From assembly GCA_015485585.1 (NCBI GenBank), contig WFTI01000035.1, positions 1 to 44,587 on the forward strand: a stretch of 44,587 nt of DNA, read 5' to 3'. Of the stretch, positions 7,031 through 36,017 are shown piece by piece (within the stretch, counting starts at the first letter, position 1; each line of letters starts with the position of its first letter). Position numbers and translations under genes: made by a program. The stretch comes from Candidatus Dojkabacteria bacterium (lineage in GTDB: Bacteria; Patescibacteriota; Dojkabacteria; GCA-002793355). Under the pieces are notes generated by a model, which made no database searches, was not told where the DNA came from, and was given only the letters and a program-made list of their open reading frames with translations.

Positions 7031-8086
7031 ATGTGGATTAATAAAATAAAACGCTGGTTATCTCCTTTCTCATTTGATGTAGGAATAGACCTAGGAACAG
7101 CTAACACCCGTGTAGGAATAAAAGGTGTAGGGTTAATAAAAATAGAACCTTCAGTAGTCGCAATTAATAAAACAACCCAGGAGGTACTTGCTGTAGGAGA
7201 AAAAGCCAAAGAGATGCTTGGGAAAACACCAGCAAATATTGTAGCAGTGAGACCTCTGCGTGATGGGGTTGTAGTAGATTTTGAAACTACCCTCGCAATG
7301 TTAAGACATTTTATTCAGGTAGCTAAAGAAAGGGCAGCCTCATCTAGTATTCTTGCACGTCCCCGCGTACTTATTGGAGTACCTTTTACTATTACAGATG
7401 TTGAGAAAGAGGCAACTATAGATGCTGCTTTATATGCTGGAGCTAAAGAAGCATATGTGATTGAAGAACCAATAGCAGCAGCAATCGGTATCGGATTACC
7501 TATTCAAGAACCCCAAGGTAATATGATTGTAGATATAGGAGGAGGGACAACAGATATCACCATTATCTCCCTAGGAGGATTAGTTGTGGATAAAACCATC
7601 CCCATAGCAGGTGATGAGATGGACACAGCCATTATTGAATATGTCAAAAACACCTACGGTCTCCTTATAGGTCCTCAAACAGCAGAAGATATCAAAAAGA
7701 CTCTTGGGAACATCTTAGTAGAGAAAAATCCTAAGAAATCTCTAGTCCATGGAACCGATATAAATACCCGTCTTCCGCATAGTATTGAGATCTCTGAGGC
7801 TGATGTTGCTGAAGCACTGTATCCTATAATAGCTCGGATTACCGATGCAATTAAAGAAGCTTTAGAAGAGGCACCTCCTGAGATCAACGCGGATATAAGG
7901 CAAAGAGGAATCTATATTACCGGAGGTGGTAGTCAGATTAAAAACCTAGATAAGTTCTGGCAAAAAGAGTTAGATATTCCTGTAAAACGAGCGACAGAGC
8001 CTCATTTAAGCGTTTTAAAAGGGATCCTTAAAGCCTTTGATAATCTTGAATATATCAAAAAACTACAAGAACGCCCCTTAATTTAA
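7031..8086 (+). CDS. mreB: Rod shape-determining protein MreB
   Basis: VGIDLGTANTRV…EEPIAAAIGIGLPIQEPQGNMIVDIGGGTTDITIISLGG. Confidence 0.97.
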   Translation: MWINKIKRWLSPFSFDVGIDLGTANTRVGIKGVGLIKIEPSVVAINKTTQEVLAVGEKAKEMLGKTPANIVAVRPLRDGVVVDFETTLAMLRHFIQVAKERAASSSILARPRVLIGVPFTITDVEKEATIDAALYAGAKEAYVIEEPIAAAIGIGLPIQEPQGNMIVDIGGGTTDITIISLGGLVVDKTIPIAGDEMDTAIIEYVKNTYGLLIGPQTAEDIKKTLGNILVEKNPKKSLVHGTDINTRLPHSIEISEADVAEALYPIIARITDAIKEALEEAPPEINADIRQRGIYITGGGSQIKNLDKFWQKELDIPVKRATEPHLSVLKGILKAFDNLEYIKKLQERPLI

Positions 8087-8099
8087 CGAAAATTATTAG

Positions 8100-8897
8100 A
8101 TGACTAACCGCAGAAAGATACAGCACTTTATTCTAGTTGGAGGTTTTACCGTTGCATTTAACATCCTCCTTTTCATAGGTGCCTTTTTCAGTGTCTATTC
8201 ACGGATACTCTATCCTTTACAATTCGGGGTGTTGTTTATTAAATCAGAGATTGAATCAAAAAAGATAAAGATACAATCTATCATCGAATCTCTGAAAGAA
8301 AGCACCCGTTTAAAAGAGAAACTCTTAGAACTTCAGGTTGAAAATATCAAATTAAGAGAAAAACTAACAAACCCAACAAATAACACTTTATCCACCCTGA
8401 ACAATAAAAAGGTAATACCAGTAAAAATCGTTGCTATTAATTACCCACAGCAAGGATTAATTATCGGGTTAGTTGATCAGACCTATAGTGAACTACTAAA
8501 AGAGACATTCCAAGATAACACTACCCCACGTTATGTGATCACAAAAGATGGTATCTTTGTAGGAAAAGTAAAAACAGTAATCTCTCCATGGATTATTATT
8601 GAAACCCTATACACTAACGGTTTTGAAGTACCAGTAGTAATTCCATCCACAAAAGAAGTGGGCATCTTAAAAAAGACTCCTGAGGGACTTATTGTCGATG
8701 AGATAACAAAAACAGAAAAGCTAAAATTAAAAGAGATTGTTAAAGTAATAGACCCAAATGGATTATCAAACCTTATACCTGTAGGCATCATAGAAAATAT
8801 AGAACCCAAGCATGCGTCAAACAGCGTTAAACTAAAGATTACTCCCACATGGCAAATAACCAAAACCGAGGATAACATCTTTGTAATAATCCGATGA
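8100..8897 (+). CDS. mreC: Rod shape-determining protein MreC
   Basis: N-terminal TM and coiled coil, beta-domain, position after mreB. Confidence 0.85.
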   Translation: MTNRRKIQHFILVGGFTVAFNILLFIGAFFSVYSRILYPLQFGVLFIKSEIESKKIKIQSIIESLKESTRLKEKLLELQVENIKLREKLTNPTNNTLSTLNNKKVIPVKIVAINYPQQGLIIGLVDQTYSELLKETFQDNTTPRYVITKDGIFVGKVKTVISPWIIIETLYTNGFEVPVVIPSTKEVGILKKTPEGLIVDEITKTEKLKLKEIVKVIDPNGLSNLIPVGIIENIEPKHASNSVKLKITPTWQITKTEDNIFVIIR

Positions 8898-9352
8898 TCA
8901 TAGCCGCTTCGAGTCTAATCATAGGACCCTTTATGTATCCTGCTACTGCCTTGGGGATCTATCTTTTATTTTCAAACTGGCAGAAGAACAAACCGCACGC
9001 CTCTGAATATATTATCAACATTGTACTTCTATCATTAGCATCGTTATTTTATCCAACATTTACAGGAATTTGGGGGATAACATTGGGAGTAATCTTAATA
9101 TTAGGCGGATTCTTAACGTTCCTATACAAAAAACCTGTTATCCCACTATGGTTTTGGATATTCATTTTTTTCCTCTTTCTATTCGTAGAAGAGATAACAA
9201 CAGTCTTGTTCCAAGCAATACTACTCAAAGAAGAGATCAACATGGGGCATTGGTATCCTAACCTAGCTAAGAGTGCGCTTACTGTTTTAGTATTAGCTGT
9301 ACAATTCGTATATGAATACATACGTAATAGAGAACATCCCATTAAAATCTAA
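8894..9352 (+). CDS. MreD-like membrane protein
   Basis: Polytopic small membrane protein between mreC and mrdA; assignment mainly positional. Confidence 0.6.
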   Translation: MIIAASSLIIGPFMYPATALGIYLLFSNWQKNKPHASEYIINIVLLSLASLFYPTFTGIWGITLGVILILGGFLTFLYKKPVIPLWFWIFIFFLFLFVEEITTVLFQAILLKEEINMGHWYPNLAKSALTVLVLAVQFVYEYIRNREHPIKI

Positions 9353-25342: not shown

Positions 25343-26254
25343 TTATCTAATTAGAATAATGACTATGTCTGCACTTGTTAACAGGAAGGGTGGTCGCTTA
25401 CTGCTCCAATATATGTTTCTTGTTTTATACAACTCTTTTATAACCCTTAAAGTTACTGTTGAATTTGCTTTTTCTTCTGCAAAGATAAAAAGATCATAAC
25501 TGTTATATTGATCGGGTAAAGAGGCGTTTCCCACCCTTATTACGTTGACTCCATACATACGGAGTATCTTAGACCAAAAAGTAGCATAACCCGGCTTAGA
25601 ACTTGCGTTGTAAATCTCAACAAAAAGGCCTTCTTGGACTATCTTATCATTTTTAAACAAGGGCCCCAATGCCTCTAGAAAATCAGTGTAGGCATAAGCC
25701 AAAACCTCTTCTTCGGTCGGAAGGGTAATCTTCTTTGAAGCCTCTATCTTAAGCTCTTTAATGGGAGCAGTTTTTTCTAAAAATCTCCACAAAAGATACT
25801 CTTTAAGGCTCAAAGATGTGGAGATTAAACGATTATCTTTTTTGACTAAAAAACCCGTAAGTGGTACTCCTGTAACCGAAACTGCTAACTTCGAAAAATT
25901 ACACGGATTATAAGGCTCTTTATAAAGTAGCCTTGCTAGAGCTTTAACCTGTATAGCAGGCACATTACTATGGCTTAGAATAATCCATTTTGTAGGATCA
26001 AGTTTTGCCCTATAGATCTCTTTCTCTTTTACGATGTGATACTCTAAGTTTTCCACCCCAAAAGGTGCAATACTATCATCTGTTTCAACTACAAGATACA
26101 CCCGTGGACTTGTAAACGAAAGAAGACTTTCACAGTTTTTTTGATAGGTTTTATTGTAGTACCCTAAGATTCCGACCCATATTAATGTAGGTATTAGAAA
26201 GAGTGTAAACAGTAGAAAACCTACTTTTTTACTGACCTTTTGCGTAATTCTCAC
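25343..26254 (-). CDS. Membrane-anchored protein with LytR_C-like domain
   Basis: N-terminal TM; C-terminal VEIYNASSKPGYATFWSKILRMYGVNVIRVGNA matches the LytR_C 'V.V.NGT…G.A' pattern. GTG start. Confidence 0.65.
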   Translation of the reverse strand: MRITQKVSKKVGFLLFTLFLIPTLIWVGILGYYNKTYQKNCESLLSFTSPRVYLVVETDDSIAPFGVENLEYHIVKEKEIYRAKLDPTKWIILSHSNVPAIQVKALARLLYKEPYNPCNFSKLAVSVTGVPLTGFLVKKDNRLISTSLSLKEYLLWRFLEKTAPIKELKIEASKKITLPTEEEVLAYAYTDFLEALGPLFKNDKIVQEGLFVEIYNASSKPGYATFWSKILRMYGVNVIRVGNASLPDQYNSYDLFIFAEEKANSTVTLRVIKELYKTRNIYWSSKRPPFLLTSADIVIILIR

Positions 26255-26259
26255 TTTTG

Positions 26260-26268
26260 TATTATAAA
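26260..26268. promoter_or_regulatory. Overlapping divergent -10s for the LytR_C gene (TATAAT, minus) and enolase (TATAAA, plus)
   Basis: tATTATAAA: minus TATAAT (26266-26261) ends 6 nt before GTG 26254; plus TATAAA (26263-26268) ends 7 nt before ATG 26276. Confidence 0.5.
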
Positions 26269-26275
26269 TCTTATA

Positions 26276-27517
26276 ATGGATCTGACATTTAAACTTTACC
26301 CGATACTTAACAGTCAGGGGGAGTTTACACTAGAGCTTTCGACAGTAATCGAGAATACACGAATAAGTGCTTCGGTTCCCACTGGAACAAGCGTAGGAAC
26401 AAAAGAGGCTGTCTCGTTCTCTGTGGTTCAATCAATAGATGCTATAAAACGGTACAATCTTTTAAATATACTAAAAAATAAACTAACAGAACTACCTACT
26501 CCCCGAGAGTTTGATGAGATTCTTATAAACCTTGATCCTTCCCCCAACAAACAGGGGATCGGTGGAAATGTAACGCTTCTTTTTAGTGTGTTCTATGCAA
26601 AGGTTTACTCTTTTATGATGAGGATTCCTCTATATAAACTTCTGACTGAGGTCTATTATCCCCCTCTCTTTAATACTCGCTTGGGGGAAACTGTACTCCT
26701 TTTTAATCTTGTCAACGGAGGACGCCACGGAAATAGCCGGTTATTTTTTCAGGAGTTTAAAATAGGGTTTTTAGGTAAAAAAACCTTAATGGAACAGATT
26801 CAGCTTGCTGTACTTCTTAATAAACGGTTCAAACGTTTGTTAAAAGAGAACAATAAAAGCTACGGAATCGGTTTAGAAGGAGGATACATCTTTGAGGCTA
26901 CAGACGAAGAGGTTCTTGAGTTGTTGCAGAGAGGGGCTGAAGGCCTTGGCCTTCAGCCCCTCTCTGACTACGCCATCTTTCTTGACGTAGCCGCTTCAGA
27001 ACATGTCCACACCGAAGATCCTCAAAATTATACTTACTATATTCCTGCTAAAGAAAAGATTGTAGATGTTAATGGTTTAATTGACTGGTATACAGAACTT
27101 GCCAAGAAATTTCCAATTGTAGGTTTTGAAGACCCCTTTGCAGAAAACGACAATCTAGGATGGGAAAAATTCAAAACCGCCCCACGTCCACGACAGTACA
27201 TCATCACAGGAGATGATCTTACTGCAACAAACCCAACCATTATTAAAGAGAGTGCTCAAGCTAAATATATAAACAATGTCATAATTAAACCCAATCAGAT
27301 CGGTACCTTAAAAGAAACCTTCCAAGCTATCCATATCGCAAATAACGAACATATCACTATCACAATATCTCACCGGTCTCGCGAAACTAACGATACATTC
27401 CTCAGTCATATTGTTGCTGCGTGTAATCCAACGTATGCAAAATTGGGAAATATAGTACGCGGTGAACGAACAGAAAAATATAACGAACTTATCCGTATAG
27501 AACGTGAGCTCATCTAA
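26276..27517 (+). CDS. eno: Divergent enolase
   Basis: PTGTSVGTKEAV, NGGRHG, GLEGG, FLDVAASE, GFEDPF, GDDLTATN, IIKPNQIGTLKET, SHRSRETNDTF, KYNELIRIE. ATG at 26276 is preferred to the ORF-track start at 26240, which lies inside the divergent gene. Confidence 0.85.
   Translation: MDLTFKLYPILNSQGEFTLELSTVIENTRISASVPTGTSVGTKEAVSFSVVQSIDAIKRYNLLNILKNKLTELPTPREFDEILINLDPSPNKQGIGGNVTLLFSVFYAKVYSFMMRIPLYKLLTEVYYPPLFNTRLGETVLLFNLVNGGRHGNSRLFFQEFKIGFLGKKTLMEQIQLAVLLNKRFKRLLKENNKSYGIGLEGGYIFEATDEEVLELLQRGAEGLGLQPLSDYAIFLDVAASEHVHTEDPQNYTYYIPAKEKIVDVNGLIDWYTELAKKFPIVGFEDPFAENDNLGWEKFKTAPRPRQYIITGDDLTATNPTIIKESAQAKYINNVIIKPNQIGTLKETFQAIHIANNEHITITISHRSRETNDTFLSHIVAACNPTYAKLGNIVRGERTEKYNELIRIERELI
26927..26966. 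repeat. Perfect inverted repeat, 19-bp arms, 2-nt spacer
   Basis: cagagaggggctgaaggcc-tt-ggccttcagcccctctctg. Confidence 0.97.
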
Positions 27518-33932: not shown

Positions 33933-36017
33933 ATGTTAACCCTTGACCAACCAGTTACAAACATCAAGTATATAGGGGAAAAGGTTGCAACGTTATTAAA
34001 AAAGAAAGGAATTACTACGATACTTGATCTTCTTAATTATTTTCCTTACAAATATGAGAACACTAAAAATATCTACTCGATCTCAAAGGTATACAACTAC
34101 TTTGACAAATACCTTGTGCTTGCCCCCTCTGGAAAACTTAAGCTTAAACTCGGTACAATAGGAATTGTTGAAGAGACAACATTGATACAACCTAAATACA
34201 AACGGAATATCAAAATAATAAAAAGCGTCATAGTTGATGAGAAAAATCCAAACGATAAGATTTCGGCAATTTGGTTTAATCAGATCCACATTTTAAAAAC
34301 CTTAAAAAAAGGAGAAAAAGTAGTACTGTACGGAGATATCTATAAACGAGGAAGCCATCTTGAAATGATCAACCCCCAGTTTGAAATCTATAAGATTCCT
34401 CTTACCCATCTTGGAAGGCTAACACCAGTATATGAGCGGGTCTCTAAAAAGATAAGTCCCAAAATGATAAGACGGTACATAAATGAGATTAAACCTCTCA
34501 TAGGCTCTATAAAAGAGTTTATTCCTCATACTCTAAGAAAAGAGTTTAATATCCTTAATCTGGCAGACGCTTATTATAAGATCCATTTTCCGAGTGAAAA
34601 ACAAGACATAGTAAAAGCCTACGAACGGCTTGCTATTCAAGAGGTTCTGGAGATGCTTGCCTCATCTAAAAAAGAGGAGGTTAAAACTCCCTCACTCTTT
34701 TCTATTAATCCTCAGTTAGTTGAACAGTTCAAAGAGTATATAGAGGAATATAAAAAGCTCCTTCCTTTTACCTTAACAGAGGATCAAGAGAAAGCCACCT
34801 TACAGATAGTGACTAACTGGGCTCAAAACAAACAGAGCGTTTTCTTGTATGGAGATGTAGGAAGCGGAAAAACTGTGGTGTTCTTCTTGCTTGCCCTTGC
34901 ATTCGGAAAATTGGGGTATTCCTCTATAATTATGGCCCCCACCTCAATCCTTGCAACCCAACACTATAAAACATTTACCGAACTCTTTGCTAGGGGTAAA
35001 GAACTATTTGATATAAACCTGATGTTGGTTACCTCATCGACAAAAAATAAGAAAAAACTTGTTATAGAGCGCCCTAGTATCGTTATAGGAACCCATGCCC
35101 TACTTTTCCGTGATATAGATTTTAAATCTTATCCACCTGCTCTTGTGGCTGTAGATGAAGAGCATAAATTCGGTATTTTCCAACGAGAAAAGCTTAAACA
35201 CCTCAACAAAGAGGGTTTTATGCCTTACCAACTATCGCTCTCAGCCACTCCTATTCCACGCACTCTAGCCCTTAGCCTATATGGATATCAAGAAGCTGTG
35301 TATATCACTACCAAACCTAAAGGTCGAAAAACCGTAAAATCACATCTTGTTCCTCCACATAAATTGGACGATCTATTAAGATGGGTCTCTGAACAGATCA
35401 AAAAGGGAGAACAGGTATTTTTTGTCTTTCCTCGAATAGAAGGAGAAGAGATCGAAAACTTCCCCCTAACCCTTTGGTATGACATGTTAACAGCCCACCC
35501 GGATCTAAAAGAGATAAAAACAGGAGTTCTTCATGGAAAAATGAAGGAAGCCGAGAAAAACCGTATAATCGAAGCTTTCAGTAAGAAAGAGATAAAACTG
35601 CTGTTTACAACTACCATAATCGAGGTAGGAATAGATATTCCTACAGCTAACATAATGGTTATCTTTGGTCCCGAATATATGGGCCTTGCCCAGCTTCATC
35701 AGTTAAGAGGGAGAGTAGGACGTTCAGACAAACAAGCTTATTGTTTCCTTTTTAGTTACAATACCCAACCATCGGTTCAAAACAGACTACACTTCTTTAC
35801 TCGACACAATGATGGTATAAAAATAGCAGAATACGATCTTAAAAACCGCGGTCCTGGAGACATCCTCATAGGGACACAACAACACGGTTGGCGACGCCTT
35901 AAGATCGCAAACCTTAATGACTACCATACATTAAACAAAGCCATCACTATCTTCCAAAGATTAAAAGAAGAAAGGGTTAATGTATTACACTATCTTACTC
36001 CGCCCCCTTTAGAGTAA
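33933..36017 (+). CDS. recG: ATP-dependent DNA helicase RecG
   Basis: LYGDVGSGKTVVFFLLAL, VDEEHKFGIFQREKL, SATPIPRTLAL, QLHQLRGRVGRS, and DLKNRGPGDILIGTQQHG. Confidence 0.97.
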   Translation: MLTLDQPVTNIKYIGEKVATLLKKKGITTILDLLNYFPYKYENTKNIYSISKVYNYFDKYLVLAPSGKLKLKLGTIGIVEETTLIQPKYKRNIKIIKSVIVDEKNPNDKISAIWFNQIHILKTLKKGEKVVLYGDIYKRGSHLEMINPQFEIYKIPLTHLGRLTPVYERVSKKISPKMIRRYINEIKPLIGSIKEFIPHTLRKEFNILNLADAYYKIHFPSEKQDIVKAYERLAIQEVLEMLASSKKEEVKTPSLFSINPQLVEQFKEYIEEYKKLLPFTLTEDQEKATLQIVTNWAQNKQSVFLYGDVGSGKTVVFFLLALAFGKLGYSSIIMAPTSILATQHYKTFTELFARGKELFDINLMLVTSSTKNKKKLVIERPSIVIGTHALLFRDIDFKSYPPALVAVDEEHKFGIFQREKLKHLNKEGFMPYQLSLSATPIPRTLALSLYGYQEAVYITTKPKGRKTVKSHLVPPHKLDDLLRWVSEQIKKGEQVFFVFPRIEGEEIENFPLTLWYDMLTAHPDLKEIKTGVLHGKMKEAEKNRIIEAFSKKEIKLLFTTTIIEVGIDIPTANIMVIFGPEYMGLAQLHQLRGRVGRSDKQAYCFLFSYNTQPSVQNRLHFFTRHNDGIKIAEYDLKNRGPGDILIGTQQHGWRRLKIANLNDYHTLNKAITIFQRLKEERVNVLHYLTPPPLE

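Follow-up and report, generated by a model that had tools for sequence, protein, structure and literature searches.

The window analyzed here is a 44,587-nucleotide stretch from the 598-kb genome (38% GC) of a Dojkabacteria-like candidate-phyla bacterium. It encodes a bona fide enolase of 413 amino acids that matches both Pfam enolase domains and aligns over nearly its full length with enolases of solved structure; the enclosing open reading frame spans 26240-27517, and the aligned enolase start is the ATG at 26276. The residues H151, E160, E201, D237, E285, D313, K338, S365-H366-R367 and K389, which include the usual catalytic residues, are intact and invariant across the aligned relatives. 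Inside this gene lies a perfect palindrome of 40 nt. The relevant features of the window are as follows:

26276..27517, + strand: enolase gene (413 aa; Pfam Enolase_N and Enolase_C, aligned to solved enolases) that bears the palindrome
26927..26945, + strand: 5' arm, CAGAGAGGGGCTGAAGGCC, G-rich, with GGGGC inside
26946..26947, no strand assigned: loop TT, 2 nt
26948..26966, + strand: 3' arm, GGCCTTCAGCCCCTCTCTG, the exact reverse complement of the 5' arm, coding for LQPLS(D)
33933..35978, + strand: recG orthologue without a hairpin; site aligned to a hairpin of the sister species, ITTKPKGRKTVK

The original prediction described the palindrome as flawless and GC-rich within an AT-rich gene, and both statements hold: at 26927-26966 all 19 of the 19 arm positions are complementary across the TT loop, and the GC content is 65% compared to 39% for the enclosing gene. 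The palindrome is read in frame as Q R G A E G L G L Q P L S D, and no second perfect hairpin of this size is present in the window. From base composition, approximately 7e-5 hairpins with 19-bp arms are expected genome-wide, and only 4 of the 63.7 million synonymous codings of this peptide form the hairpin. The original prediction also called for folding of the mRNA and for a search for further copies. The 131-nt mRNA segment around the palindrome folds with -61.9 kcal/mol (z = -6.7), and a search of the 598-kb genome that tolerated as many as 2 mismatches detected no further copy of the arm. The T-tract that follows the stem of an intrinsic terminator was not found at this site, and no Rfam family reached the threshold; the weak matches to microRNA precursors were far below it and are such as any long hairpin would give.

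Because the alignment with the enolases of 29 relatives runs through the palindrome free of gaps, and hence without any change in length, the palindrome is, as read from this alignment, an overwriting of conserved residues and not an insertion, in accord with the earlier impression that it did not look like a simple insertion. An aromatic position (Tyr or Phe in all 29 relatives) is replaced by Leu, an Ala found in 24 of the 29 by Gly, and a Gly found in 22 of them by Leu. The closest available enolase shows 53% identity, and the enolase of the sister species contains no hairpin. Alignment of the orthologous genes had been proposed as a way to recognize an ancestral arm; the peptide of the 3' arm, LQPLSD, is nearer to other enolases (AGYQPGSD) than the peptide of the 5' arm, a resemblance that weakly hints at the 3' arm as the source of copying and does not polarize the arms with confidence. 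Most likely, the palindrome has no function of its own, and the enzyme tolerates it.

The enolase palindrome does not stand alone but belongs to a class of perfect hairpins that is spread over the genome and specific to the lineage. In total, 23 perfect hairpins have arms of 12 bp or longer (the longest 23 bp), compared to 0.8 in dinucleotide-preserving shuffles, which served as the null for the arm-length spectrum; for arms of up to 10 bp, the counts match the shuffles. The 12-bp cut-off was set after the spectrum had been seen, and the excess does not depend on its exact value. In 18 of the 23 hairpins, the arms are at least 50% GC. A sister species of the same genus (one of its contigs matches WFZN01000053.1, Candidatus Dojkabacteria bacterium isolate S143_152, exactly in reverse complement), for which 454 kb or about three quarters of the genome were available, contains 25 perfect hairpins with arms of up to 20 bp, so that the genus carries one perfect hairpin per approximately 20-25 kb. 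Within open reading frames of at least 120 codons, there are 9 hairpins in this genome and 11 in the sister species, against 0.4 in each after synonymous codon shuffling. No two arms are identical among the hairpins of the two species. Imperfect counterparts that are long and GC-rich hardly occur in either species, and the class is therefore binary, perfect or nothing. The in-gene hairpins of this genome are found in the following proteins, of which the LCP-type, solute-binding-type and seryl-tRNA-synthetase-like ones appear to be such from our own reading of the sequence:

enolase, arm 19 bp
RadC, arm 15 bp; orthologues align gap-free
IF2B-family protein, arm 15 bp; gap-free with the orthologue
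alpha/beta hydrolase, arm 13 bp, over the GHSTGG motif; gap-free with the orthologue
LCP-type protein, arm 12 bp, over a motif conserved in the LCP family
solute-binding-type protein, arm 15 bp, in the linker
two more proteins without a Pfam match
seryl-tRNA-synthetase-like gene, an AT-rich hairpin that may be due to chance

The remaining hairpins are intergenic or located in RNA genes, namely in or near the rRNA genes, 5' of the tRNA genes listed below, and after two genes that we read as probable tuf and rplL:

L049:4897-4950, perfect hairpin directly or nearly directly 5' of tRNA-Val
L071:11042-11075, perfect hairpin directly or nearly directly 5' of tRNA-Arg
L064:15073-15100, perfect hairpin directly or nearly directly 5' of tRNA-Phe; the sister counterpart has a different sequence

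Comparison of the two species shows that the positions of hairpins are almost never common to both. There are two exceptions, with different sequences in each species: the groES-fusA spacer, where a hairpin lies upstream of tRNA-Phe in both, and the N-terminus of an orthologous gene (L033:2399-2435 and L099:3268-3294), where a similar inner core, GGGCGC..GCGCCC, is surrounded by different outer arms. In most of the testable genes the hairpin has replaced sequence in place: orthologues align without gaps through the hairpins in enolase, the IF2B-like protein, the hydrolase and RadC of this genome and through those in RecG, a CAP-domain protein, a TraG-like ATPase and L149 of the sister species. 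For example, a 16-bp perfect palindrome is present in the sister recG (L083:276-2348) at a position where the recG of the window, to which it aligns, has no hairpin, and in the TraG-like ATPase one arm encodes PPP, common to the hairpin-free orthologue, whereas the opposite arm encodes WAA against WSL in the orthologue. Three hairpins (L131, L158 and L139) are located at sites that differ in length and carry extra sequence. Separately, an AT-rich hairpin occupies the same position in both species (L055:8262-8298 and L156:2922-2956), and its sister copy contains G-T and mismatched pairs; unlike the GC-rich class, this shared hairpin behaves as an ordinary structure.

The GC-rich hairpins possess a strong polarity, which is independent of orientation, since both strands of a palindrome read the same 5' arm. 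The 5' arms of 41 GC-rich hairpins contain 320 G and 162 C, with G exceeding C in 36 of the 40 unequal cases and C exceeding G in 4. GGGG is present in 28 arms and CCCC in one, and GGGGC is present in 25 arms, compared to 9.3 after shuffling within arms; T exceeds A weakly (74:65). When GGGGC..GCCCC matches were counted against the control polarity, CCCCG..CGGGG, the ratios were 12:3 in this genome, 38:5 in the sister species, and 12:2 and 164:2 in the genomes G004 and G005 from related genera, all of one family. In a wider sample of several hundred relatives from the phylum, the control polarity was mostly as common or commoner, and by our reading of the assay a ratio of about 1.7:1 was not exceeded by any genome from beyond the family that had 10 or more matches. 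Among these several hundred relatives, G-first polarity is thus nearly confined to this family.

In G004 and G005, multi-copy hairpins with recurring cores are found, mostly intergenic in the loci seen, in a manner reminiscent of REP/BIME elements. G004 contains at least 8 copies of an identical hairpin, GGGGCGGCGGCC-TTC-GGCCGCCGCCCC (one of them at L178:1497-1531). G005 contains approximately 164 hairpin nuclei that end in GGGGC and among which two cores, GGGGCAAAATGNG and GGGGCAAAAATCGA, recur; these hairpins have perfect arms of up to 24 bp, are often paired roughly 100-130 bp apart between genes (loci L181 and L195-L208; for example, L197:1492-1542 and 1619-1670), and in part lie inside open reading frames (L208:1500-1533, for instance, falls in a RadA-like linker). 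Two further genera of this family, represented by 300 kb and 100 kb, showed arms of 12-13 bp only, at lower rates, and 150 kb of Escherichia coli K-12 yielded arms of 12 bp at most, none of them in genes. Among 8 genomes of the family, MutS was identified in 7 and RecJ in all 8, and SbcD and XseA (exonuclease VII) were undetected in any. Loss of these nucleases was considered as the sole cause of the hairpins and rejected, because hairpin-poor members of the family also lack detectable SbcD and XseA; the absence of SbcD and exonuclease VII is thus not sufficient and may be permissive.

We consider it probable that the palindromes arise when one arm of a hairpin is copied onto its partner at the DNA level. 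Under this model, a DNA strand would fold back on itself where an inverted repeat, short or imperfect, is present, and the polymerase would briefly take one arm of the resulting hairpin as the template for the other (a template switch, or 'quasipalindrome correction'), whereby the two arms would become fully complementary without leaving their place. Either the process itself or the survival of its products would be frequent enough in this genus to populate the genome, and existing hairpins would be kept perfect. Arm copying would account for perfection without imperfect intermediates, in-place change, different sites in the sister species, unrelated sequences and the cost to conserved residues. 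Of the candidate origins listed in the original prediction, it is the template switch that becomes the leading one, given the perfection of the hairpins, the in-place change and the unshared sites. We infer that template switching, and not selection, both generates the hairpins and preserves them, and that the GC-rich, G-first character of the stems follows from the choice of hairpins that form and from the way in which these are corrected. Several observations argue against it, namely the excess of GGGGC, for which a mechanism blind to sequence gives no reason; the weakness here of the T-over-A excess, another prediction for template switching (PMC8794818); and the three hairpins at sites of different length, which show that not all are in-place replacements. 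A further reading, which we regard as unlikely, is that this lineage possesses an active, sequence-biased system that writes hairpins, either a dedicated enzyme or a selfish hairpin element that would recognize GGGGC-ended stems, act without changing length and keep the palindromes perfect, with the multi-copy GGGGC hairpins of G004 and G005 as another outcome.

The palindromes might instead be functional DNA or RNA elements, such as terminators, signals for processing or stability, or protein-binding sites, that are kept perfect by selection, with codons adjusted where they fall in genes. The non-coding hairpins are denser than the coding ones, several abut tRNA genes or come after rplL and tuf, the spacer between groES and fusA carries a hairpin in both species despite the different sequence, GGGGC is enriched in the arms, and hairpin cores are conserved between genes in G005. 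However, selection on RNA structure should leave G-U pairs, mismatches and shared positions, and in the GC-rich stems the former two are nearly absent while positions are almost never common to the two species; the enolase site, moreover, has neither a T-tract nor an Rfam family at the threshold, and conserved residues of the enzyme are broken there. We therefore regard selection as unlikely, although it is a slightly better candidate than the hairpin-writing system. Somewhat below both we place mobile palindromic elements with GGGGC ends (of the REP, Rickettsia palindromic element or MITE-like kind) that would insert in and between genes. Such elements are suggested by the multi-copy hairpins of the related genera and by the extra length at three in-gene sites, but insertion would add length and leave copies, and neither is seen here: every arm is different in both species, that of enolase is unique, most testable in-gene hairpins add no length, and no Y1 (PF01797)/IS200 transposase was found in any of the 8 family genomes. 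For the enolase palindrome in particular, the lack of a second copy, of a length change against 29 relatives and of such a transposase makes the mobile micro-element of the original prediction unlikely.

The amplification or assembly artefact that had also been listed is very improbable. Both assemblies are fragmented and that of the sister species is labeled as a metagenome-assembled genome, but the same class of hairpins recurs in the separate public assembly of the sister (WFZN01), similar hairpins are present in G005, and reading frames remain open and lengths are preserved through the palindromes. As for chance, or a protein sequence that forces a palindrome, inverted repeats with arms no longer than 10 bp are as frequent as chance predicts; given the genome-wide expectation for 19-bp arms, the rarity of hairpin-forming synonymous versions, and the 0.4 in-gene hairpins in synonymous shuffles against the 9 and 11 observed, we treat this explanation as already refuted. 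On the whole, the earlier interpretation is partly supported: it is right that there is no simple insertion and in naming a template switch as a candidate, the mobile element and the artefact that it also listed are unlikely, and the genome-wide class of hairpins, which is the main finding, lay beyond its view.

A search of the literature on Dojkabacteria and palindromes retrieved nothing relevant. The closest parallel is in the mitochondrial genes of Nematomorpha, where perfect coding palindromes are binary in the same way and have been proposed by the authors to stem from arm conversion or template switching (PMC6649704). As in that case, perfect repeats occur in conserved coding genes beyond chance and without an excess of imperfect ones, are scattered, and are gained or lost between species. 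Unlike the nematomorph repeats, with arms of up to 142 bp, those described here are found in a bacterial chromosome, have arms of 12-20 bp with short loops, involve both genes and spacers, and are GC-rich in an AT-rich genome with a strong G-first polarity. Quasipalindrome template-switch mutations have been reported in E. coli (PMC7202029), in RNA stems (PMC8794818) and in coding genes of yeast (PMC8604942), and intrastrand switching has been predicted to enrich G in the 5' arm along with a T-over-A excess (PMC8794818). The likeness extends to stems made perfect in place, which arm-to-arm copying yields, and to the predicted G-first 5' arm, but those cases are single events or reporter hotspots, whereas here a genome-wide standing population of hairpins exists in one lineage. 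The Rickettsia palindromic elements, as summarized in PMC6649704 from Ogata et al., are insertions of related sequence whose repeat identity is lost with time; they similarly place palindromes in bacterial protein genes and leave the frame open, but, going by that summary, differ from the hairpins studied here, which have unrelated sequences, mostly no added length and perfect arms. REP/BIME elements likewise are hairpins dispersed between genes; in this genome, by contrast, there is no shared hairpin sequence, many hairpins are in genes and no REP-type (Y1) transposase was found.

In the literature searched, genome-wide perfect coding palindromes are described for the mitochondria of hairworms (and, with shorter repeats, some others), with the mechanism left open; here, bacterial chromosomes carry them. 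Since there are many independent cases, along with two species of one genus and hairpin-poor sister genera, the question whether template switching suffices to create and keep in-gene hairpins becomes testable by comparative genomics. A lineage with a raised rate of template switching would represent a special type of natural mutator, and these observations suggest that conserved protein residues are open to overwriting by arm copying, which would be a source of multi-residue protein change.

Among the RNA genes of this genome, the 23S rRNA region (L037:4702-9400) includes open reading frames of the LAGLIDADG type, as read from their sequence, at 7186-7620 and 8437-9150, which suggests the presence of introns in the 23S rRNA gene.
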